A DNA stretch of 23,067 bases from a virus, in IMG/VR virus record IMGVR_UViG_3300042292_000892, positions 1-23,067 of that record; one strand, written 5' to 3'. Below the pieces are notes generated by a model that was not told the origin of the DNA, searched no databases, and saw only the letters and a program-made list of their open reading frames with translations. Of this stretch, positions 981 through 21,108 are shown piece by piece (within the stretch, counting starts at the first letter, position 1; each line of letters starts with the position of its first letter). The translations under genes were made by a program, and so were the position numbers.

Positions 981-2653
981 GTTTAGATTTAACCATATTA
1001 CAAAAACCATTAGATGTTACTGAATCACATTCAGACCATACTTGGAATGTTTCCCTCAATGACTATTCAGCATATACAGACATTAGATTGGTTGTTGATG
1101 TATACAAGAATCCGTATCAAAATGATATTGGTCCAAATAATCAACAAGGAACAAACCAACAATACGGAAAGTTTGGAAGATTATTAGTTCCATCAAATGA
1201 GTTCGGTAACTGTATCTTCAATGTGGAAACAGTTATTAGAAACTTCGTTCAAGCGAATCCAAGAAATATGGATATGGTTATGACTATGACCGCAGGAACA
1301 GCACAGAACGACCCCTATCTTGTTGAATACTATAACCAAGCAGGTCTAAACTTTACAGCGAACACATCACAAGCCACAATCGTTAATGAGAGACCCTCCA
1401 CAGTATCTTTTTCTAACGGTTTTAACGGGGGTTTTCCTGGTTTTGATAACATATATCACATCAACGAATATCGTTTAATTTTCGGGGTGCAATACACTTC
1501 TGGTGGGACTTCACAAATCATCATCGATACTACAAATTATAATGTCTATTCAGGTTGGACAGGTCAGAGCATTTCGGTATATTCTGCATCCACCCAACCT
1601 TATGGAGTTACAATTTATCCTGGCGTTCAGGACAACAAAAGATTTGCTGTCTCATCGAATCCAAATTTTTCGTATTACTACTCTGGCACAAACTTATCTG
1701 GGCAATACAACTACTGGAATACAAAAGTGTTCGACTTCGCAATGAACACAGGGGTCTCCCCACTCAATCAGCCTGGTAGGTTTATGGGAACATTCGGTAA
1801 TGAAACAATCCCAATGACTTTATTCGGTGGACCAGTTATCCAAACAAGATATAGAACACACTACTACAAGTGTCCAATAGTTCTTGGATTTATGTATGGT
1901 GAAAATCAACTCTATAACAACTCAGTTCCTGTTCAGTCAATTTCTTACTTACAGAAAACACTCAATAACACACAATACAATTATGATGTTTTACAATCTG
2001 TTCCAATTGACTACACAACAAAACCATTTGGTTTGTACTCATGGTTAGGTCAAAGGATTGCTTACGCTGTATGGAAACAAAACCCATTAATCAGAACACA
2101 GAGTGATGTCGCAATCTTCCTATCAAGTGGTGATTGTGACCCTTCATATGTTTCAGGCGTATCTGAGGTTGTTCAATACAAAATGGTTGGTGAAGAATGC
2201 TTTAACGACCCTGTGAATTTTTTATTTCTCAATCGTAACGGCGTTTGGGATACATACACATTCACAAAGAAATACTCCAAGAAATATAATGTAGACAAGA
2301 AAGTTTATTCTCAATTCAAGACACTTAACACACAAGTTTGGAATAGACAATCATACGACTCACAAGAGACAGTATTTTGGGGTAACGCAGATGAGTTAGT
2401 TACTGTGGATTCAAACTTCGTTCAACAAAACGATGTGGATATCATTGAGGAATTATTGATGTCCCCTTATGTTTACATGATAATGGACAACTGGGTTCCT
2501 GAGGGTGACCAACAAAAAAATTATCCTTACTTAATACCTTGTGTAGTTCAAAATAAATCTGTTCAAGAATATATTCAAAAGTATGTTAGAATATTCCAAT
2601 ACACAATTGAACTTAAACAGACACCTTATAGAAGATTTGAATTACCAATATAA
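977..2653 (+). CDS. Large virion structural protein, tail/baseplate-type family of Bacteroidota phages
   Basis: A 558-residue beta-rich protein high in Asn, Tyr, Thr and Gln. The N-terminal part (about residues 12-90) reads 'DHTWNVSLNDYSAYTDIRLVVDVY' in pattern: a short strand-turn-strand region followed by 'GKFGRLLVPSNEFGNCIFNV' and 'VIRNFVQANP'. I associate this layout with virion proteins of uncultured Bacteroidota phages that lie directly upstream of an about 1000-aa tail protein, exactly as here. It contains no PT linker, signal peptide or obvious enzyme motif. It overlaps both neighbours (4 nt upstream, 1 nt downstream), implying co-translation and roughly matched expression. A tail-tip or baseplate role is inferred from the pairing with the next gene; no specific function can be read from the sequence. 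Confidence 0.6.
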   Translation: MSLDLTILQKPLDVTESHSDHTWNVSLNDYSAYTDIRLVVDVYKNPYQNDIGPNNQQGTNQQYGKFGRLLVPSNEFGNCIFNVETVIRNFVQANPRNMDMVMTMTAGTAQNDPYLVEYYNQAGLNFTANTSQATIVNERPSTVSFSNGFNGGFPGFDNIYHINEYRLIFGVQYTSGGTSQIIIDTTNYNVYSGWTGQSISVYSASTQPYGVTIYPGVQDNKRFAVSSNPNFSYYYSGTNLSGQYNYWNTKVFDFAMNTGVSPLNQPGRFMGTFGNETIPMTLFGGPVIQTRYRTHYYKCPIVLGFMYGENQLYNNSVPVQSISYLQKTLNNTQYNYDVLQSVPIDYTTKPFGLYSWLGQRIAYAVWKQNPLIRTQSDVAIFLSSGDCDPSYVSGVSEVVQYKMVGEECFNDPVNFLFLNRNGVWDTYTFTKKYSKKYNVDKKVYSQFKTLNTQVWNRQSYDSQETVFWGNADELVTVDSNFVQQNDVDIIEELLMSPYVYMIMDNWVPEGDQQKNYPYLIPCVVQNKSVQEYIQKYVRIFQYTIELKQTPYRRFELPI

Positions 2654-5600
2654 TGAGTTTACAGATTAGAGCATTTGTTCAGGGAGAACCAAAATTTTTA
2701 GATTTATACAAGGATGAACCAGTCCTATTGTCTTTATCATTCGCAGAAGTACAAGACATTACAAAAAAGAACTCAGCATTCTCAAAGGGATTCTCAGTTC
2801 CTGGTTCACAGAGAAACAATGAGGTATTCAACTTTTTCTATGACCTTAATTCTGTTCCTGTAACATTCGACCCCAACAACAAATTCGATGCTCAACTCTT
2901 ATGGGATGGATATGAAATCCTACAAGGACATATTAGATTAAATGGTGTATCAATATCCAATGATGAAATCATTTATCAGGTTACATTCTATAATCAGGTT
3001 GGGGACTTAGCAGCAAACATTGGAGACAAGTATCTGAGAAACCTTAATCTCTCAGGTATATCACATCCATATCAAGATAGTGTAATCTTAGAATCAATTG
3101 TTGACCCGACATTATGGAATCTAACAGGTTCAACAAACTATTCATATCAGAATGGAAAAACATTTTGGGGTCTATACAACATCGGTTATGACTATCTGAG
3201 TGGAACAACACTTAATAGTGATGTATCACCACTCATTCAATTCTCACCATTGATATCAGGTACAACAGGTAATCAATTCGTTCCTCAATTTGGAAACTTC
3301 GATTTTTCAGGGACTCCTGTTAGAGATTACTATTACAAGCCGACATTACAAATCAAAACTCTATACGAAAAAATCTGTGAAGAAGCAGGTTATGAAATAC
3401 AGTCCAACTTTTTCAACACAGATTACTTCAAGAAGTATTATATGCCATTGAAATTCTTGGATGAAAGTATCTATGCAAAACAATCATTACCTGCTTGTTT
3501 CAGTTATGGTCCACAGGATTTCAATTTAACGAGTGTATTGAATGATGTTTATACAGTTCCAAACTCAGCAACAACTTGTAACGCACTCGGTTTCCCTTTA
3601 ACAAATACAGGGTTTACAATCGAGGAACAATACGCTGGTATCTATACATTTAGATTTACTTGGTCAATGATTGGTCAATGTGATTATTTTAGTTTTAACA
3701 TACCACTCGTTAACCTTATGATTGTTGATGGGACAGGTGGTCAAAACTTTTATACAAACTATTGGTGTGATTCAGAAAGACAGGTAGTGTCGTTGGAACA
3801 GACATTCAATTTCACAGGAACATCAACTGTTGGGTTCGTATTCAAGGGTGAGTATGCACAAATCTCAGGATTTACAGCACAGATTATCAACGCTCCAAGA
3901 TTTATTCCAACAGGTTCAACGATTAACTACGCAGAAGAATTCCCTGATAATGACTACACACAAATTGATTTCCTTACATCAGTTAACAAGTATTTCAATC
4001 TCGTTGTAGTTCCAAATCCTGATAAGCCGAGAAGTTTAATTGTAGAACCAATCATCGATTATATCGGTAAGGGAAGGACACTCGATTGGACAACAAAGGT
4101 TGACTTCAATCAGATACAATCTCTATATCCAACAACATCTCTAATCAATGGAACACTTGATTATGAATTTAAGTTAGACCAAGATTATGCTAACCAAGAT
4201 TTTAATTCTCGTGCAAACAGAATATTTGGAACAGATAAATTCAAACTGAATCTTCAATATAAAGATGAGGTTACCAAATTTACCTATCTATTCTCATCTC
4301 CAATTGATATTACAATTAACAACGCATTCGTTCCCCTAATCACAATTGAGTCAATGTCCAAGTTGAAATCGATTGATAAAGATGGTCAATCACAACAGAC
4401 ATTCGTTCCATTTAAGATATTACCAAAATTAATATTTAGAGGTCTAACATTACCAAATGATAACTATGGATTTGTTGGGGGAACAGGAACAACAACTGGT
4501 TCATCTGTTTGTAAATCAGGAATAACATTCACTTTATCAGCACCAAGAACAGTTGAATATTATGATTGTTTTGGAGACCAAAATTTCTTTATAGGAAATA
4601 CTGGTTCTAATACACTATTGGAATGTGCTGACCCTTCATCTCTTAGAATACCAGCACCACAATTACCTGCAACATTAACAATCACAAGTTCAGGAACAAG
4701 TTGTGGAACGATTGTTCAAGACCCTGTATATCAGACCTATTGGATGGATAACAATCAGATAGATAGATTCACCAACCTTAATAGATTTACAACCTATCCA
4801 TTCGCTTATAATAACTTCTCACACTACATTAATTTTAGAGGTGAGGATAAAACCAATATTACCCCTGCTGAATTCTCATTTGTATCTGAGGACTTATACG
4901 ACATCTATTACAAACCTTATGTTGATGATTTGATTAACGAAGAAAACAAGATTTATTCTTGTAAGATTTATCTGTATCCACAAGAGATTCAACAACTCAG
5001 ATGGAATGAAAGAATCCTAATCAACAACACCTATTTTAGAATCAACAGAATCACCAACTACAATATGACCGAACCAACAATATGTGATGTTGAGTTGGTT
5101 AAGTTAACAAGAGAATATCCAGGTCATAGAGTTTTATATTATGATTTAATACCTTGTACAACAGGTGGAACAGAACTACATTCAAGTTCTGATTATATGT
5201 ATAACTTATACGCATACGCAGGAAACTTCGTAAAACTATTTGATGATAACAACACCTATCTTGGATGTTATAATGTCTCAATAGGAACATACAATTCAGG
5301 TTATACTTACAATCACTATTATATCAATTCAGCATTCACATTTAACAATGTTGGGGTGTATGTTGATTGTGGTTGCACAGGAAGAACACCATTTGATTTA
5401 GTTCAAGAAGAGCCAGGTGAACCAAGATTATTCTGGTATAGAGGAATAGAGTGTAATGGAACAGACGAGTATGTATTTACATCATCAGGTTCATCAATTG
5501 ATTTGAGTGGAGGAACATTCACACTATACAACTCAACAATATTTGATGAGGTTTGTGTGAGTGGTGTTACAGGATATTTTGCACAAGATACTCTGTGGGA

Positions 5601-6135
5601 ACAGGTGGGACAATTCAGTTCATGTACAGAGTGTTCTTGTGTATTCTGTTTCTCATTTTCAATGACCGCTAATACAACAGGTCTTGTATCTTGGTTGGAT
5701 TGTGATGGAATCGTATCAGATACATTCCTATTAGCAGGTCAGACATATACAATCAGTTGTCCTGGTGCAAGACCTGGCACTATTACAGGTGATGTTACAC
5801 TTGATAAAGGACCAGTATGTTTTAATAGTTGTGTTACCCCAACTCCTACTCCGACAATACCAATCACTCCGACACCTACTCCAACATCACCAACACCTAC
5901 TCCAACTGCAACACCTGAAACTACTCCTACACCAACACCATCAACAGGACTTGTCCCTTGTTACAACTACATCAACAATTCTGACTTCGCTTGGTTTGGT
6001 GATTATGTTGATTGCTTGGGTAATGTTGTCCTCAATTGGTATCTACCACCTTATGAATCAATATGTGCTCAGGTTGGTTCACCAATAACTCAAAGTGGAG
6101 AAGATTTAGTCCCAATATTTATTTGTTATGGATAA
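2653..6135 (+). CDS. Large tail-associated structural protein with C-terminal Cys modules and a PT linker
   Basis: This is the largest gene in the window (1160 aa). The N-terminus (about residues 15-130) follows a pattern I recognise from baseplate/distal-tail-type proteins of Bacteroidota phages: an '[21 protein letters not shown]' strand pair, a '[17 protein letters not shown]' loop and a 'GHIRLNGV...[12 protein letters not shown]' sheet ending in 'IGDKYL'. The middle is beta-rich. From about residue 850 it becomes Cys-rich, with modules of the type C-x-Y...(D)C-x-G...L..G....IC, such as the one around SWLDCDGI. A Thr/Pro linker follows (about residues 1060-1098), then a last module containing 'VDCLGNVV' and 'ESICAQVG', and the protein ends in ICYG. 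The stop overlaps the next gene by 8 nt. It is probably an extended tail-tip protein carrying surface-exposed display modules; the exact position on the tail is inferred. Confidence 0.65.
5836..5946 (+). repeat. Thr/Pro-linker coding repeat (TPTPTP)
   Basis: A low-complexity stretch of act/aca-cct/cca codons that encodes mostly alternating Thr and Pro, interrupted by Ile, Ser, Ala and Glu. It separates two Cys modules near the end of the 1160-aa tail protein. Synonymous codons vary, so the DNA repeat is degenerate although the peptide pattern is regular. Confidence 0.85.
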
Positions 6136-7627
6136 TTTTAGTTGCTCACGATATAGTCACAATGAACCTAACTACGGTCCAAAAGTAATCTCAGGAACTA
6201 CTTGTTCAGGAGTTACTGGTTCATTCACATTGGTGTATGGGGAGTCAATCTGTATGTCCAATGCAGAACCATTGAATGCTTGTGATAATTTTGATATTGA
6301 AGAGATATGTGGATTCCCAACACCTACTCCATCAGCAACTCCAATCATTACTCCAACACCAACAATTACTTCTACACAAACTCCTACAAATACTGAAACT
6401 CCTACTCAAACGCCTACAAATACACAAACACCCACTACAACTACAACATTAACATCAACTCCAACTCAAACACCTACTAATACTCTTACATCATCGAACA
6501 CACCAACAAATACTGCTTCACCGACTTATACACCAAGTGTAACACCTACAAACACAAACACACAAACACCTACACATACAACTACTCCAACATATACACC
6601 AACTCAAACTATAACTTCAAGTCAAACCCCAACAGTAACACCAACAATCACAACTGTTTGGTATTATTATGAACAATCTAATGTTAGTGATTCAAATTGT
6701 AATGCATTATTACCAATAAACACAAATAATTGGTATTTAAGAAGTAATATTATTTTAACTGCTAATTTTTATTGTTACGGTGGTTATGGATTTTCAGGTA
6801 GAATTGGAAGCCCTTCGGGATGGATAACATCAACACAACCTGGCAGATATGATTATGAATTAATAAACCCAATACCACAATCAGGTTGCACAAACGGATT
6901 GTGTTGTATAACATATATCAATAATGACGCTAACGGAGTTCCTGTAACAGTATCAGGAACAACTTGTGGTGGTGTGGTCGGGAATTTTATGGTAAATTCT
7001 GGTCAAGCAATCTGTATGGATAATGATTTTGAAATCATTACTTGTGGTAATGCTGATATTGGAGCAGAATGTCTTCCACCAGTAACCCCGACACAAACTC
7101 CAAGTCAAACAACAACTCCAACACCATCTGTAACTGTTGGATTAACACCTACCGCAACACCTCAGTCAACAACAACACCAACCATAACCCCAAGTCCAAC
7201 AAGAACTCCTATATCTACTCAGACGCCAACAAGAACTCCTATATCTACTCAGACGCCAACTGGAAGTTCATCAATTACACCAACTCCAACATCTACAATC
7301 CCTGTAACCCCAACGATAACATCATCACCAACACCTACCGAAAGTTGTCCTAATACAATTTATACTCATGGGGCAATTTTAGGTACTTGTAGTGATTATT
7401 GTAACAACAATTATAATATCACAGTTCAAGATTGTTCAAGTCAACCTTATTCAACTCTAACAATTGGTGATTTCATTTATGGTTATTCGGGTCAAAGTGG
7501 ATATCTCGCATATTCAAATGTATCAACAGACACATCAACTGGTCCGTTCTTGATTGCGGATATAGATGGTTCAGGTGAAATACTTGGAATCTATGTTTGT
7601 TCAGGTGGAAGTTGTATACCTCAATAA
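6128..7627 (+). CDS. Modular appendage protein: Cys modules joined by long PT linkers
   Basis: The 499-residue protein consists only of modules and linkers. Module 1 (about residues 1-62, with SGTTCSGV and GESICMSN) is followed by a Thr/Pro/Asn/Gln linker (about 63-175). A middle segment (about 176-316) ends in a second copy of the module ([16 protein letters not shown]). A second linker (about 317-406) then leads to a different C-terminal module (about 407-499, with [18 protein letters not shown] and STDTSTGPF). The ATG lies inside the end of the previous gene (8-nt overlap, +1 frame), and no separate virion-anchor domain is visible. The protein therefore probably works next to, or attached to, the preceding tail protein, perhaps as a surface-exposed adhesin or glycan-binding appendage. 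The function is inferred; the modular layout is seen directly. Confidence 0.7.
6316..6650 (+). repeat. Long PT-linker coding repeat 1
   Basis: About 110 codons of Thr-Pro-Thr-x pattern with Gln, Asn and Ser at the x positions. The peptide [11 protein letters not shown] occurs here and again in the linker of the appendage gene at 14144-15985, which suggests that the linkers share ancestry or have recombined. Confidence 0.85.
7078..7345 (+). repeat. PT-linker coding repeat 2 with an exact 30-nt tandem duplication
   Basis: Thr/Pro linker between the second and third modules of the 499-aa protein. Bases 7201-7230 and 7231-7260 are identical, giving a 10-residue duplication (peptide [10 protein letters not shown] twice). 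Identity at the DNA level points to a recent slippage or recombination event. Confidence 0.9.
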
Positions 7628-10089: not shown

Positions 10090-11718
10090 ATGAATCCTAC
10101 TCGTATTATTGAACTTTTTATTGATGATGAGTTCGAGGAAAGTGGTATTGAAGCAATCTCACTTGTATCAAGACCTGCTCACGATGAGCAGTGGATTGCT
10201 TTTGGTCACGATGAAGAAGTTGAAAAGTTAGAACCCAAATACAATATTGTATCAGATGACTTCTGTTCACACAACCCAAAATTAGACCAATTAGGAGAAC
10301 CTTATCATCAATTGATAGATGAGGGTTGGGAAGTAATTAAAGTCGAAAAAATCACACCTATGATGGTTCAGAAGATGAACCAAGAGAGGTTCTCAGAACC
10401 CAACGAACCATCATTCTTAGATAATGACCAATATAGAGTTAGATTCAAATATGTAGGTCCAAGAGACCCGAAGAATAGACAATTCTGTTCTGATATGTTA
10501 TCCATGAATAGAGTTTATAGACAAGAAGATATTGATGAGTTAACTGATTCAGTTGCTAATGAAGAATTTGGTTTCTATAACATCTTTTTGTGGAGAGGTT
10601 CATTTAACTGCCGTCACACTTGGGTTAGATTATTATACGCACCGACTGGTAAAATTAGAAACTCAGGTTCATCAACAAGAGGTGTTGAAGATACAAGTGC
10701 TCAGTCATCAAATCTTCAACCCGATACAAGAACAGAAACAACAATCAACTCACCAAATCCATCTAAACAATGGAAACCTGGTATGCCAAGAACAGGTCCA
10801 AATCTTTTTAAGAAAGATGAAATGGGACTTGAAGATGCTTGTTGGGAAGGATATGAACCAATCGGGACTAAGATTCTTGATGGTAGAGAAGTTCCAAACT
10901 GTGTTCCAATTAAGATGACTGAGGATGATTTTGCAGATACAATATCTGACTACCCTGAGGGTGTTAAGAACGCAGCAAAAAGTGCTGTTGAATATGCAGA
11001 CAAAAACGGATGGGGTTCTTGTGGTACAGGTGTAGGAAAACAGAGAGCATCTCAACTTGCAAAAGGTGAGAACATCTCAGTGGATACATTAAAAAGAATG
11101 TATTCATACCTATCAAGACACAAGACAGATTTAACCAAATCAAAATCATATGATGATGGTTGTGGTAAATTGATGTATGATGCGTGGGGTGGTGAAGCAG
11201 GACTCAAATGGTCAGAAAGAAAACTGAAACAATTGGAGAAGGAAAAAATGACCTTCGCAGTTGCGGATGAAGACAAACAAATCCTTGTGGGTGCAGCGAT
11301 GGTGCCAAACAAAATGATTCACAGATACGATGACTTGGGGAATATGTACTATGTATATTTTTCCAAAGCGTCAATCCGTAAAATGGCAGACCGTTTCCTC
11401 AAACAGAAACGCACTGACGAAACCTCCATAGAACACAACGGCATTAAGTTAGGTTCAGACAAAGTTTACATTACAGAATCTTGGGTTTCAGAAGACCCTA
11501 TCAAAGACAAATCAAATATGTATGGTTTTGAACTACCATCAGGAACATGGTTTGTTCAGATGCGAGTTGAGGACAAGAAGATATGGAAATTAGTAAAAGA
11601 TAATATGTTAACTGGATTTTCCGTAGAAGGATTATTCGGTAACAAATCTGTTTTCTCAAAAGAAGACAAACAAATAAACCAAATAAAGCAAATACTTAAA
11701 TCAATAACAGATGAATAG
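10090..11718 (+). CDS. Multidomain head morphogenesis protein: MuF-like domain fused to an XkdF-like prohead protease
   Basis: Three regions can be seen in 542 residues. At about 115-185, 'RVRFKYVGPRDPKNRQFC' followed by Tyr-Arg-rich helices and the ending 'GSFNCRHTW' fits the MuF (Mu gpF-like, minor head) family, with its conserved Arg-x2-Phe-Cys and Asn-Cys-Arg-His residues. A central region contains 'DACWEGYEPIG...VPNCVP' (about 255-277) and a helical 'GSCGTGVGKQRASQLAKG...RMYSYLSRH' segment (about 299-340), a domain I have met in phage head proteins but cannot name. The C-terminus (about 395-542) fits XkdF-type (Peptidase_S78_2-like) prohead protease: 'MVPNKMIHRYD', a candidate catalytic His in 'TSIEHNG', and a candidate Ser in 'LTGFSVEGLFG'. 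It would cleave scaffold and capsid precursors during head maturation. A scaffold-like gene and the capsid follow immediately, which supports this. Confidence 0.7.
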   Translation: MNPTRIIELFIDDEFEESGIEAISLVSRPAHDEQWIAFGHDEEVEKLEPKYNIVSDDFCSHNPKLDQLGEPYHQLIDEGWEVIKVEKITPMMVQKMNQERFSEPNEPSFLDNDQYRVRFKYVGPRDPKNRQFCSDMLSMNRVYRQEDIDELTDSVANEEFGFYNIFLWRGSFNCRHTWVRLLYAPTGKIRNSGSSTRGVEDTSAQSSNLQPDTRTETTINSPNPSKQWKPGMPRTGPNLFKKDEMGLEDACWEGYEPIGTKILDGREVPNCVPIKMTEDDFADTISDYPEGVKNAAKSAVEYADKNGWGSCGTGVGKQRASQLAKGENISVDTLKRMYSYLSRHKTDLTKSKSYDDGCGKLMYDAWGGEAGLKWSERKLKQLEKEKMTFAVADEDKQILVGAAMVPNKMIHRYDDLGNMYYVYFSKASIRKMADRFLKQKRTDETSIEHNGIKLGSDKVYITESWVSEDPIKDKSNMYGFELPSGTWFVQMRVEDKKIWKLVKDNMLTGFSVEGLFGNKSVFSKEDKQINQIKQILKSITDE

Positions 11719-14143: not shown

Positions 14144-15985
14144 ATGATTCTTCTAAAAACAAACCAATTAAATAAGATTGTTGTAACCGTTTCTCAGAAC
14201 GCAGAACTTGCGAATCCTGAGTGGTTATTCTCGTTTACACATATCTTCTCAAAAAGAAGAGTAACAATGATTTTATCTAACATCTCAACACATAGAGTTA
14301 GATATGACGAGTTTGAATTTATTGAAGGACAAAATCCTGGTGAGATTGCATTTCCTTACACAGGGCAATACAACTATGGAATTTGGGAGCAGCCCGCTGG
14401 TAGTGGGAATCTTGACCCAGTGTATGCATACAACCTCGTGGAGTCAGGTATTGCGTTGTTGATTGCACAATCTGCAAACACTACGAATGATTACTTTATG
14501 GAATTCATTTCCAATGATGAAGATGATTCCAATATTATATTCGCTCCTGATGAATTAAATCCACCATCACCAACTCCAAGTGTAACTGCGTCTCAAACTG
14601 TTACACCAACAATAACTCCATCGAATACACCGACACAACAATTTACTCCGACACCAACTCAAACACCAACTCAAACACCAACGAGAACAGGAACACCTAC
14701 GCCTACTACAACAACTACATTAACTTCAACGCCAACAAATACTCAAACACCTACACCTACTACTACAACCACATTGACTGCTACCCCTACACAAACTCCT
14801 ACTAATACTGAAACTCCAACTAACACACCAACAAATACTACAACTCAGACCCAAACTCCAACACCATCAATTACAGCAAGTCAAACTCAGACACCAACAC
14901 CGTCTATTACGGCAAGTCAAACACAAACTCCAACTAATACTGAAACCCCTACTCCAACTCCTACAATTACAGCAAGTCAAACACAAACTCCAACACCGTC
15001 TATTACAGCAAGTCAAACTCAGACACCAACTAATACTCAAACTCCAACACAGACACAAACTCCTACAATTACAGCAAGTCAAACTCAGACACCAACACCA
15101 AGTATAACCGCATCACAAACACAAACACCAACTAATACTCAAACTCCAACACAGACACAAACTCCTACAAGAACGGCGTCTGTTACACCAACTCCAACAG
15201 CAACTCCACCAGCAGGTCTTACACAAGCGAATGATTATTTGACCGCTATTGTTAACGCAGGTGCTACAGGTATTACATCAACAGTTTCTGCCGCTACACA
15301 AACATTATTTACAAGTTTATGGTCTAACAGTTTGAACACGAAAATGATTGCGATGTATCCATTCTTGGGTGGTAATAGTAGTGGATGTAAATTCAATGCA
15401 ATTGACCCACAAGACACAAATGGTGCATACAGATTGGTCTTCAATGGTGGTGTTACATTCAATGCTTCAGGTGTTACCTTCAACGGTAATAACGGATACG
15501 CCAACACATATCTATCAGGAAATACAATTACTCCAAACGATAACCACTTGTCTGTCTATATGAGAGATAACACAGCAGTCAACTCGAAGACATATTTGGG
15601 TTATGCTGACGGTTCAACAAACTTCTTGATATCAAATGGTGGTGATAACAATCACTATTATTATTATGGATTAGATACTGCGGGTATTGTTAGCACAACA
15701 TCAGCAACAACAAGTGGATTGAATCTAATTTCCACTACTGCAACAACTTTCCAAAATCTTTATAGAAACGGTAGTATTGTGATAACCAATAGTGGAGCAG
15801 CAACAGGTTCTACAAATCAAGAATTATTAATCGGGGCATTAAACAATGCAGGAACAATTATTCAGTATTATGGAAATGAATATAGATTTGTTACTATTGG
15901 ATATGGATTGAGTGAAGTACAACAATCAACTCTATCTTCAATAATAAACACATTCCAAACAACTCTTGGAAGAAATACATATTAG
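14144..15985 (+). CDS. Appendage protein: conserved N-domain, very long PT linker, C-terminal lectin-like (LamG-type) domain
   Basis: The 613-residue protein has three parts. Residues 1 to about 138 form a beta-rich domain ('[20 protein letters not shown]', '[11 protein letters not shown]', '[13 protein letters not shown]') of a type I recall from structural proteins of Bacteroidota phages; it probably attaches to the virion. Residues about 140-355 are a linker of some 215 Thr/Pro-rich residues, including nested 12-, 10- and 8-residue repeats built from [12 protein letters not shown] and [12 protein letters not shown]. Residues about 357-613 form a C-terminal domain with '[10 protein letters not shown]', '[10 protein letters not shown]', '[12 protein letters not shown]', '[10 protein letters not shown]' and a final '[14 protein letters not shown]'. 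This pattern fits a concanavalin/LamG-like lectin fold common at the ends of phage appendages. It is probably a flexible receptor- or glycan-binding fibre on the head. The start codon directly follows a terminator. Confidence 0.7.
14855..15160 (+). repeat. Nested PT-linker repeat array of 102 codons
   Basis: The array is built from two unit types: [12 protein letters not shown]-like (12 residues, also shortened to [10 protein letters not shown] or TITASQTQ) and [12 protein letters not shown]-like (12 residues). They follow in the order A A B a A B a A B, so a roughly 100-nt higher-order unit recurs. Codon choice differs between copies in places, showing both old and recent duplication. Confidence 0.85.
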
Positions 15986-16207: not shown

Positions 16208-16215
16208 TATATTTA
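16208..16215 (+). promoter_or_regulatory. TATATTTA motif upstream of the portal gene
   Basis: One mismatch from the Bacteroidota -7 element TAnnTTTG, and related to the AATATTTATAGATA motif before two other gene blocks. No TTG lies at the expected upstream spacing, so support is weak. Confidence 0.25.
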
Positions 16216-17426
16216 TGAATATGAACGAATCTGTAAATGAAAATAATATCCTAAAAGTTTTCGATTTTGCACCCGCACAGGTGCCTCTAATTGAGGAGAA
16301 CTTAATCGTAAACACAAGAACGCCATGGGTGTACTACGGGGTTGCGAACCTTGCACCTCAGGAACTTATTCGTTTATACAATACTTCTCCAACGCATCGC
16401 GCATGTATTACTTCAAAGTGGTATGGAACGAGAGGAGAAGATATTAAATTAACATCGGGAGAAAATGATAGACTGGTAATGGTTAATTCTCTTGGAGACA
16501 AGATGTATGACCTATGGAATAAGACGATTCTCGACTTCCTGCTCTATGGCTCGTTCGCAATAAATTGTGTATGGCGTCGTGATAGGTCTATGGGATTCGA
16601 AATGTATTACATGGATATGTCTAAATTGAGAGCAGAAAAATCTGATTTTCACGACAGAATAAATAACTGGTACTATTGTGCGGATTGGGCATTCCCGAAG
16701 AAATTCGTTCCTCGTAAATTGCCAGCATTCAATCCAAATACAGAAGAACCAAGTCAGGTTTTTGTATATTCTACTCACTCCGCAGGAAATAACTATTATT
16801 CAACACCAACTTTTTGGGGTGCTGCCACCGCAATTTCTACTCAAATCGAAATATTCAACTGGCATTTCAACAACATTGTTAATGGATTATCTCCATCACT
16901 TTTTGTTGGTATCAATTCAGGCGTGCCAGACCCTGAACAGCGCGAACAAATCTATAATAACCTTCTCGCAAAATATGCGGGAAGTAACACATCGGGCAAA
17001 TTATTTCTTACATTCAGCGACGGAAAGGACCAAGCGCCAACCATAGAACCCATACCACATAACGGTTCTGATTCAATGTGGACAGAACTTAATGATATGG
17101 TTCAACAAGCAATCTTAACTGCACATCAAATTTCATCACCTGAATTATTGGGAATTGTTACTCCTGGTCAGTTGGGCAATCCAGACCACCTTGAAGCTCA
17201 GGACCACTTTTTTAATTTAGTAATCAAACCTTTGCAGCGAGAAGTGAAAAGTGTATACGAAAGATTATTATTACTCCGTGATGGTAAACCTGCGGAGATT
17301 GAAGTAGACCAATTTGAGATGGTTACGATTGCAGACAAAGCACCAATTAAGGTCGAGGAAATCGATGAGAAGAAAGATGTCTCAGTTGATGAGAATAAAA
17401 ATTTGAATGAAAATATAACAGAATGA
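16215..17426 (+). CDS. Portal protein
   Basis: The 403-residue product fits the phage portal family. An N-terminal stretch ('APAQVPLIEENLIVNTRTPW', 'LIRLYNTSPTHRACITSKW') corresponds to the clip/wing lead-in, followed by 'FLLYGSFAINCVWRRDRSM' at about 110-130 and a beta-rich wing. Near residues 285-350 is the stem/crown-like helical part ('WTELNDMVQQAILTAHQISSPELLGI', then 'QDHFFNLVIKPLQREVKSVYERLLL'). The dodecameric portal forms the DNA channel at one capsid vertex. Two in-frame starts are possible (16215 and 16221); the first follows an ATATTTAT motif. The stop overlaps the connector gene by ATGA. The C-terminal tail is acidic/Lys-rich and low in complexity. Its place after the capsid gene instead of before the protease is unusual. 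Confidence 0.75.
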   Translation: MNMNESVNENNILKVFDFAPAQVPLIEENLIVNTRTPWVYYGVANLAPQELIRLYNTSPTHRACITSKWYGTRGEDIKLTSGENDRLVMVNSLGDKMYDLWNKTILDFLLYGSFAINCVWRRDRSMGFEMYYMDMSKLRAEKSDFHDRINNWYYCADWAFPKKFVPRKLPAFNPNTEEPSQVFVYSTHSAGNNYYSTPTFWGAATAISTQIEIFNWHFNNIVNGLSPSLFVGINSGVPDPEQREQIYNNLLAKYAGSNTSGKLFLTFSDGKDQAPTIEPIPHNGSDSMWTELNDMVQQAILTAHQISSPELLGIVTPGQLGNPDHLEAQDHFFNLVIKPLQREVKSVYERLLLLRDGKPAEIEVDQFEMVTIADKAPIKVEEIDEKKDVSVDENKNLNENITE

Positions 17427-18894: not shown

Positions 18895-19374
18895 ATGGCG
18901 AATCTATTCACAATAAGTATGAAGAGCGGTGTTGATACAACAATAACAAGTATATCATCAGCACCAAACCAATCAACTACTTTTACAATAACGGGTGGAA
19001 CATTTCCACTTGGTGCGGGAAGTCCCGATATTACAGGAACATATACAACAATAAATGATGGTACTGGTTCTCAAACAGGAACTGTATTTATGTTTCTTGT
19101 TCAAGGTTCTGCTCACATAGATTATTTTGTAGGTGGGTCAAAAGTGTTTGATGGTGATTTTGGTAGTGGATTTGCTGAAATCCCTGGACCAATAGCGACA
19201 AATCAAGATTTAGTTTTTAATATCTATAATATTGTTGAACCAACACCAACTCCGAGTGTAACACCTACCAATACAGGAACACCAACAAACACACCTACCA
19301 ATACAGGAACACCAACAAACACACCTACCAATACAGGAACACCAACAAACACACCTACCCCATCAAGACCTTAA
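18895..19374 (+). CDS. Small virion protein ending in a bare PT linker
   Basis: The 159-residue protein has an N-terminal beta-rich domain (about 1-115; 'TSISSAPNQSTTFTITGGTF', 'GTYTTINDGTGSQTGTVFMF', 'DLVFNIYNIV'). It then runs straight into a Thr/Pro linker that contains three exact 10-residue repeats (TPTNTGTPTN) and stops after TPTPSRP. Unlike the other three PT-linker proteins in the window, no domain follows the linker. The N-domain may be virion-bound, with the linker as an exposed tail, or a distal domain may have been lost. The gene is the last of the structural block and is followed by an inverted repeat and a strong terminator. The function is not known. Confidence 0.65.
   Translation: MANLFTISMKSGVDTTITSISSAPNQSTTFTITGGTFPLGAGSPDITGTYTTINDGTGSQTGTVFMFLVQGSAHIDYFVGGSKVFDGDFGSGFAEIPGPIATNQDLVFNIYNIVEPTPTPSVTPTNTGTPTNTPTNTGTPTNTPTNTGTPTNTPTPSRP
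19261..19350 (+). repeat. Three exact 30-nt tandem repeats in the PT linker
   Basis: Bases 19261-19290, 19291-19320 and 19321-19350 are identical and a fourth partial copy starts at 19351. Each encodes TPTNTGTPTN. Perfect identity, including synonymous positions, indicates very recent expansion. Confidence 0.95.
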
Positions 19375-19389
19375 TTTTCATAAAAATAA

Positions 19390-19419
19390 TTGATTTACCA
19401 AGATACAATAATATATTTA
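19390..19419 (+). promoter_or_regulatory. Possible Bacteroidota-type promoter upstream of the inverted repeat
   Basis: TTG at 19390-19392, a 19-nt spacer and TATATTTA at 19412-19419 (TAnnTTTG with one mismatch). Transcription from here would begin inside or next to the inverted repeat and end at the terminators downstream, giving a short RNA with no ORF. Confidence 0.3.
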
Positions 19420-19481
19420 TAAGTGAGGTGAGTTTGCAGGTTTATCCCATTTAACATCTTTTTTTTTCTCACCTCACTTAT
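19419..19481 (+). other. 14-bp inverted repeat with 35-nt loop at the structural/early boundary
   Basis: ATAAGTGAGGTGAG (19419-19432) is perfectly complementary to CTCACCTCACTTAT (19468-19481). The 35-nt loop contains a run of nine T (19459-19467). A partly T-rich stretch follows. It may be a terminator, an operator-like inverted repeat or part of a small RNA. Confidence 0.75.
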
Positions 19482-20020: not shown

Positions 20021-20701
20021 ATGAAATTTGAAATTGTAAAAGAACACGAATATCAGAAGACCGAGAGAGTAGGTCAGATTATCAAGTATTTTGATTTACA
20101 GGGTGATAAAATCGTTGAGAGTTTTATCGGTGATATTGACTTAGATTTCGATTGGAATGTAGGTCTCATTGTCGGTGACTCAGGAACAGGAAAAACAACA
20201 ATCGCAAAACAATTATTCGGTGATGATATTGTTTCTGATTTGTCTTTTTCTGAGAACTCTGTTATTGATGATTTCCCAAAGAATAAAACTATTGATGAGA
20301 TAATTCAAACTCTCATATCAGTTGGTTTTTCTTCACCACCAAGTTGGTTGAAACCATATTCAGTTTTATCTATGGGTGAGAAAATGAGAGTAGATTTATG
20401 TTATTCTTTATTGATGGATAAAGACCTTATTGTTTATGATGAATTTACTTCTGTTGTTGACCGTGTTACCGCAAAGTATGGTTCTGAATTATTCTCCAAT
20501 AAGGTTAGAAAACTCGGAAAGAAATTTGTTGGTATATCTTGCCATCAGGATATAGTAGAATCTATGAATCCCGATTGGATATTCGATACAAATAAAATGG
20601 AATTTGTTATCCCTCAAAAAAAAAAGTCCAACACAGAATTGAAATCTATAAGTCAACTTATAAAGGACTCTGGAATATTTTTGGAAAGTATCACTATCTA
20701 A
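20021..20701 (+). CDS. ABC-type ATPase, N-terminal half of a probable ATPase-acetyltransferase fusion
   Basis: The 226-residue product has every main ABC-ATPase motif: Walker A GDSGTGKT (residues 52-59), a 'GFSSPPSWLKPYSVLSMGEKMR' stretch with the signature LSMGE (116-120), Walker B LIVYDE (136-141) with catalytic Glu141, the D-loop-like SVVDR, and the switch His175 in SCHQD. No membrane helices are present, so it is a soluble ATPase and not a transporter. It resembles the phage-encoded ATPases normally fused to a GNAT acetyltransferase (COG2401-like). In those proteins the reading continues past the 'DWIF' strand into the acetyltransferase. Here the frame instead runs through an A10 tract at 20616-20625 and stops after 25 further residues. 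The biochemical role of the family is not established to my knowledge; DNA or nucleotide modification is a guess. Confidence 0.85.
   Translation: MKFEIVKEHEYQKTERVGQIIKYFDLQGDKIVESFIGDIDLDFDWNVGLIVGDSGTGKTTIAKQLFGDDIVSDLSFSENSVIDDFPKNKTIDEIIQTLISVGFSSPPSWLKPYSVLSMGEKMRVDLCYSLLMDKDLIVYDEFTSVVDRVTAKYGSELFSNKVRKLGKKFVGISCHQDIVESMNPDWIFDTNKMEFVIPQKKKSNTELKSISQLIKDSGIFLESITI
20616..20626 (+). promoter_or_regulatory. Candidate -1 frameshift / slippage site (A10-G)
   Basis: A run of ten A (20616-20625) ends in G. In the ATPase frame it reads CAA AAA AAA AAG, so the last seven bases form the heptamer A AAA AAG, the best-known bacterial -1 slip site (as in dnaX). A -1 shift moves translation into the GNAT frame. 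A weak hairpin (TATAAG/CTTATA, 20647-20662) lies 20 nt downstream. Confidence 0.6.
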
Positions 20702-20736
20702 GTCATAGGATTAATAACTCATCTGAAAAATTCGTT

Positions 20737-21108
20737 ATGTTCATTGACGGTCATCTTTGTGGTTTCAATGCGTGTTTGAACTTCCCACATCCTACCGTTA
20801 AGAATATGAGAAAGGAACATAGATTGGTTATTCTTCCACAATTTCAAGGACTTGGTCTTGGTTCAATTCTATCTGAGTTCTGTGGTAAATATTATACCAA
20901 TAAGGGATTAAGATTCAGAGGTACAACAACTCATCCATCTCTTATTTATAGAAGGTCTAAAAATCCTAATTGGACCTTTATATCCAAGAAAGAGAATAAG
21001 GATTCTTATGAAAAAGATTTGATTAAAACAAGATGGTTTGCAGGTTATAGAACAACTTATACCTTCGAATACATTCCAAAAAAAGAAGAAAATGGACAGG
21101 AAATATGA
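20737..21108 (+). CDS. GNAT-type acetyltransferase domain, probably the C-terminal half of the ATPase fusion
   Basis: Read from ATG 20737, 123 residues show the acetyl-CoA binding motif of GNAT enzymes: 'HRLVILPQFQGLGLGSIL', with the Q-x-x-G-x-G signature QFQGLGLG, then 'FRGTTTHPSLIYRRSKNP'. In the same frame, upstream of this ATG, the sequence stays open back to 20596. From about 20640 it encodes IEIYKS...GLWNIFGKYHYLSHRI, which contains the conserved W..F..YHYLS segment that opens this domain in related fused proteins. That stretch has no ATG, GTG or TTG, so independent initiation would give a truncated enzyme. I therefore infer expression by a -1 shift from the ATPase gene; a sequencing or natural indel in the A10 run is the alternative. 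The substrate is unknown. Confidence 0.75.
   Translation: MFIDGHLCGFNACLNFPHPTVKNMRKEHRLVILPQFQGLGLGSILSEFCGKYYTNKGLRFRGTTTHPSLIYRRSKNPNWTFISKKENKDSYEKDLIKTRWFAGYRTTYTFEYIPKKEENGQEI

Follow-up and report, generated by a model that had tools for sequence, protein, structure and literature searches.

A candidate programmed frameshift between the two domains of a phage ABC-ATPase/GNAT gene, with recoding signals in its split and fused relatives

We analysed a viral stretch of 23,067 nucleotides (the window; positions 1 to 23,067 of IMG/VR record IMGVR_UViG_3300042292_000892) and found that one of its genes is likely, at a probability of about 0.88, to produce two proteins in a programmed manner, an ABC-type ATPase alone and the same ATPase joined to a GNAT acyltransferase, whether by slippage of the ribosome or of RNA polymerase. 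In the proposed mechanism most ribosomes would translate the ATPase and its short disordered tail and terminate there, so that a stand-alone ABC-type ATPase is made. A programmed fraction would slip back one base at A_AAA_AAG within a run of ten A (A10), and the slipped ribosomes would continue into the GNAT frame to make an ATPase-acyltransferase fusion. The ratio of ATPase to ATPase-GNAT would matter, for instance, for how a DNA-modifying complex is composed. The family seems to make both products throughout, by means of no fewer than three types of recoding signal, as suggested by the -1 split genes with their slip motifs together with the alternative frame and the signals kept in fused genes. 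A preliminary description had proposed a programmed -1 frameshift with two products for the window; the split in the window stands, with support from the A10, the frames, the stop and the slip motifs of relatives, and its scope is here widened to the family, including fused genes with other recoding signals.

The ATPase open reading frame (frame 0) lies on the plus strand at 20021..20701, encodes 226 amino acids with a PF00005 domain and ends in the TAA at 20699-20701. The GNAT acyltransferase coding region (PF00583, PHROG 11143) occupies 20626..21108 of the same strand, stop included, in the -1 frame, which is open over 20596-21108, so that the frames overlap across 20596-20701 to the base as had been described. 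Within the dual-coding overlap (20627..20701, plus strand) frame 0 encodes the ATPase tail and frame -1 encodes beta1 and alpha1 of the GNAT domain and the YHYL residues. The GNAT-frame codons of W..F..YHYLS (20671..20703, plus strand) enclose the ATPase stop. The A10-G run, A10 at 20616-20625 followed by G20626 (20616..20626, plus strand), was located as previously reported. The ATPase codons from 20615 read CAA AAA AAA AAG TCC and place the slippery heptamer A_AAA_AAG (20620-20626, plus strand) in frame; it has the X_XXZ_ZZN form of -1 ribosomal frameshift sites, lies in the 0 frame and falls inside the open overlap. Upstream of the ATG at 20737..20739 (plus strand) the GNAT frame has no ATG, GTG or TTG, in agreement with the first reading of the sequence. 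The two halves matched the single 357-residue chain of PHROG 11143 in order, the ATPase half at 3-198 (E 6.5e-50) and the GNAT half at 205-354 (E 6.4e-26), and W218, F221, H225 and Y226 were invariant in a 10-member alignment. On the strength of this single chain and the invariant W, F, H and Y, the RIEI..W..F..YHYLS segment 5' of ATG 20737 is assigned by sequence to the GNAT domain, and W..F..YHYLS is conserved in one-chain proteins, as the preliminary description had stated.

The joint is predicted to be the interdomain linker. In the model of a fused relative (L029, pLDDT 85) the ABC domain spans approximately residues 1-198 and is followed by a weaker linker (199-210), beta1 (211-216) and alpha1 (219-226) of the GNAT domain. 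The window ATPase modelled alone with AF2 was confident to about residue 200, where the domain ends, and the 26-residue tail inside 20021..20701 (plus strand) was disordered (pLDDT ~50). Fold matches were to GNAT enzymes and ABC ATPases, the full-length match being a protein of Leptospira phage LE4, and a sequence search of solved structures returned weak GNAT matches only.

By its sequence, the window gene is assigned to PHROG 11143, the ABC-ATPase/GNAT family of phages, as the Walker A GxSGxGK, the LSxGE signature, DEFTS and the GNAT W..F..YHY are all present as invariant columns. Of the 139 testable loci, 116 have a ParB-like gene no more than 1.5 kb upstream; none was found in the window itself or the examined stretches of L002-L008. 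The phage Mu Mom profile PF25680 gave no match for the window and an E of 0.006, below the cut-off, for one relative (L010). In three loci (L352, L354 and L358) a formyltransferase-like gene, annotated as phosphoribosylglycinamide formyltransferase, lies directly 3' of the family gene, and this neighbour may hint at the transferred group. By count, the promoter motif TAnnTTTG, taken as a host marker, was not enriched in the window. Elsewhere in the window, structural-type reading frames at 2653-6135, 6128-7627, 14144-15985 and 18895-19374 carry tandem Thr/Pro-rich repeats, as does 19261-19359, encoded by nearly identical 30-base DNA units. An inverted repeat with perfect 14-base arms and a 35-base spacer (19419-19481) between the structural genes and the ATPase module may be a terminator or a regulatory element. 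The portal profile PHROG 33693 is divided over two distant reading frames, 16215-17426 (profile positions 20-333) and 10090-11718 (395-537), the latter also having head-protease matches.

The closest relatives keep this arrangement. Over the gene and 1.5 kb upstream, three further IMG/VR contigs (L002-L004) have the same sequence as the window. Two diverged pairs, L005/L006 and L007/L008, share 75/62% and 64/68% amino acid identity with it, so that 25-38% of residues differ, and all four retain GAA AAA AAA AAG with the slippery heptamer, both open frames and a TAA within YHYLS. The alignment check suggested in the preliminary description thus found the joint, the A10, the split and the stop kept in both homologue pairs. 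Nucleotide identity to these relatives was 0.79 and 0.88 in the overlap vs 0.72 and 0.63 in the ATPase body, as is expected of dual coding.

Among the matches listed, to which all gene counts here refer, at least 38 split genes at 90% redundancy from phages and viral contigs carry the GNAT in a different frame, and in all of them it is the -1 frame; as the family rows are mutually related, nominal P values overstate their independence. This two-ORF layout is seen in phages of Oenococcus, Lactococcus, Streptococcus, Enterococcus and Thomasclavelia, which are ~30-50% identical and in which the YHYL codons likewise contain the ATPase stop. No viral contigs of the Enterococcus type were found, and the genome scan returned two full family members only. 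The sole +1-type row, a Javan420-type Streptococcus gene (L013, L109, L228) akin to the split Streptococcus genes, shares with these relatives the ATPase stop and the motif GTT TTT C, has an extra change of GNAT frame downstream and is probably a decaying copy. Some members came from pattern searches, L122-L241 from one that required the YHYL stop without asking for an A run, and L242 onward from one that required an A run and was excluded from motif statistics. Every joint tested (36 split genes, no A-run selection) had an in-frame slip motif, 22 of them A_AAA_AAN, 5 T_TTT_TTN, 1 A_AAT_TTT and 8 T_TTT/C. Slippery heptamers in the 0 frame (ZZZ = A or T) were present at 27/36 of these joints, against 30/265 (11%) equal-size windows of the same ATPase domains. 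In Escherichia coli A_AAA_AAG is a highly efficient motif, and U_UUU-type tetramers shift hardly at all unless a stimulator is present (PMC4066793). The strong downstream stems that are frequent among tetramer-type and T-type members, a few bases 3' of the site (z of -4.5 in L010, -3.0 in L145, -5.1 in L122 and -4.8 in L239), agree with this need of the tetramers (PMC4066793). A downstream stem was sought and not found in L009, L118 and L125.

Fused genes, the majority of family members among the matches listed, have the GNAT domain in frame, and selection appears to act on the alternative C-terminus even there. In 77 fused genes not chosen by the YHYL pattern, the +1 frame, which corresponds to the ATPase-tail frame of split genes, was open from the joint in 77/77 vs 41.8 expected (sd 4.0) and its stop fell exactly at the YHYL codons in 76/77 vs 14.7 expected, the latter expectation being obtained by drawing synonymous codons from each gene's own usage; together these counts indicate selection on the alternative C-terminus. 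After removal of the closely related A10 class the stop was still at the YHYL codons in 36/37 genes vs 7.9 expected. Of nine controls (the -1 frame at the joint and, in each of four further 75-nt segments, both frames) eight were within 1.6 sd, and the ninth, the +1 frame of an ABC segment, showed the largest deviation at ~2 sd. Synonymous randomisation and the control segments ruled out that the conserved stop is a by-product of the conserved GNAT residues. Two fused-type genes have an in-frame stop, L021 (Tenacibaculum phage pT24) in the middle of the GNAT domain at ~2242 and L071 two codons before the A10 run at ~1116, each a candidate for an error, decay or another recoding event.

The fused genes were grouped by their recoding signals, with heuristic class boundaries. 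In the F-A class (46 genes) A10 is followed by T, and 43 read CAA AAA AAA AAT AGA, where a -1 slip meets TAG immediately and a +1 slip runs on as far as the YHYL stop. The A10-TAG of this class was dropped as evidence, with P ~0.35 over five synonymous choices. The F-T class comprises 9 genes with T runs. The F-RF2 class (48 genes) has a Shine-Dalgarno hexamer (CGGAGG, AGGGGG or similar), 3 nt, CTT and then mostly TGGC, CGGC, CAGC or AGGC, and the residues encoded by the hexamer vary (RR, RG, GR, WR). Under synonymous shuffling the hexamer, 3 nt and CTT would be expected in 0.8 genes; they occur in 48 of the 75 fused genes lacking a run, and in 18 of the 37 of these that are unbiased vs 0.3 expected. 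A further 19 fused genes have a Shine-Dalgarno-like element (F-SD) and 8 more fall outside the classes. In five actinophage-type genes (L019, L089, L094, L106, L349) the sequence TGGAGG TCG GTT CAA CCC C keeps the Shine-Dalgarno element and replaces the CTT, with CCCC nearby, and the +1 frame is open as far as the YHYL stop. Judged by sequence, the signals of split and fused genes fit the shift direction that each layout needs. Shine-Dalgarno leaders precede 20% and 6% of open reading frames in phages of the homopolymer classes vs 46% in those of the prfB-like class, a difference which offers a lead that host translation may decide which signal works.

As to how the shift would occur in the window, we infer that it is mainly ribosomal, a reading we hold with somewhat better than even confidence. 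The heptamer A_AAA_AAG favours ribosomal -1 slippage; the A10 also permits RNA polymerase to add an A, so that some mRNAs would encode the fusion and the same two products would result, and possibly both mechanisms operate. Transcriptional slippage is the less probable of the two and the one serious competitor, and it draws on the A10 of the window and of the 46 fused relatives and on the window having no stimulatory stem. The downstream stem was not beyond chance there (z = +0.5) and is not obligatory for A_AAA_AAG; without this structure the ribosomal and transcriptional routes are not separable in the window, and as no obvious upstream Shine-Dalgarno element is seen either, the slippage rate could be low. 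What speaks for the ribosome comes from the family, since many split relatives have runs of just 4-7 bases, only about one split gene in two has a run of 9-10, and fused relatives bear the ribosome-type Shine-Dalgarno and CTT signals.

Apart from slippage, the GNAT half might be a separate protein, translated either from a start codon of its own or through reinitiation after termination at the ATPase stop. Annotators have called it as an own-start reading frame in some relatives, and TTGA or ATG lies near the stop in L009, L010 and L016. Against this, 14/38 split genes have no GNAT-frame start codon before the ATPase stop, and an independent gene start, which the preliminary description had named as counter-evidence, was not found as a conserved feature among relatives. 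In the window such a protein would start at ATG 20737 at the earliest and lose beta1, alpha1 and YHYLS with its invariant YHY, and separate proteins leave the slip motifs and the fused relatives unexplained, so we regard this explanation as improbable. Phase variation, in which run indels toggle the genome between split and fused, appears equally improbable; A10/T10 runs do mutate easily and both frames stay open, but the layout differs in 0/318 non-identical pairs at >=80% identity, which disfavours it, and short-run and prfB-like members cannot toggle by run indels. The absence of one A, whether through an error of assembly, natural variation or decay of the gene, is largely refuted and the least credible, for although homopolymers are error-prone and A11 would fuse the frames, the same A10 occurs in four identical and four diverged contigs, all 38 split lineages are -1, both frames are under constraint, and conservation across relatives ruled out a mere indel or misassembly. 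Programmed synthesis of the two proteins would account for a pattern recorded in sequence family-wide, namely the split, its direction, the slip motif, their conservation and the selection on both frames.

In a FastTree phylogeny of 168 rows the window groups with L006 and L008 (support 100), and long branches such as L016 are placed uncertainly. The split label needs 13 changes on this tree, at least 8 of them forced by well-supported branches. The signals found in the family comprise -1 heptamers, -1 tetramers followed by a stem, runs of A10/T10 and the prfB-like +1 type. It is fairly likely that the family retains a single decoding decision at a fixed codon position and repeatedly swaps the deciding machinery, split and fused layouts interconverting at least 8 times with the alternative frame and its stop constant, and that the protein ratio is the conserved trait.

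In dnaX (tau/gamma) slippage, which is ribosomal in some bacteria and transcriptional in others, gives rise to a full-length product and a short one. Programmed frameshifts in phages are known mainly from tail and capsid genes. Slippage likewise lets copA yield a short product beside the full-length one (PMC5009743). The ABC-ATPase/GNAT gene would resemble dnaX and copA in giving a long and a short product from one gene; it differs in that its layout itself switches between split and fused and in having a prfB-like +1 class. In IS1/IS3-family elements -1 frameshifting at A_AAA_AAG/A and U_UUU similarly joins an upstream ORF to a catalytic ORF in the -1 frame (PMC4066793), though their proteins are unrelated to ABC-ATPase/GNAT, a family which would also use other mechanisms. 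The +1 site of prfB (RF2) reads AGGGGG nnn CTT TGA C (PMC12421855), and some relatives resemble it in the Shine-Dalgarno hexamer, 3 nt, CTT and NNNC that follow one another. They differ in having a sense codon (mostly TGG, CGG, CAG or AGG) instead of the in-frame TGA and in that the shift would yield the short product rather than the long one; the window bears the A run instead of a prfB-like signal.

The ABC-ATPase/GNAT system has been predicted to acylate DNA bases (Iyer et al. 2013, as restated in PMC7824862), and the proteins studied here are of the same family, often ParB-linked, the example protein QAX98348.1 of PMC7824862 being L351 of our set. PMC7824862 mentions no frameshift; an earlier report of a frameshift in this family was not found in the literature searched, which is not proof of absence. 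If the reading is true, a programmed frameshift would operate in a predicted DNA-modification (anti-restriction) enzyme, and it would make a testable claim on enzyme assembly. ATPase supplied both alone and as fusion would, we infer, build a complex whose acyltransferase heads are limited in number. The frameshift would also explain why separate or truncated GNAT or hypothetical proteins are annotated in phages of Streptococcus, Lactococcus and Oenococcus. The family would further offer a natural experiment in which one gene is served by different recoding mechanisms in different hosts.
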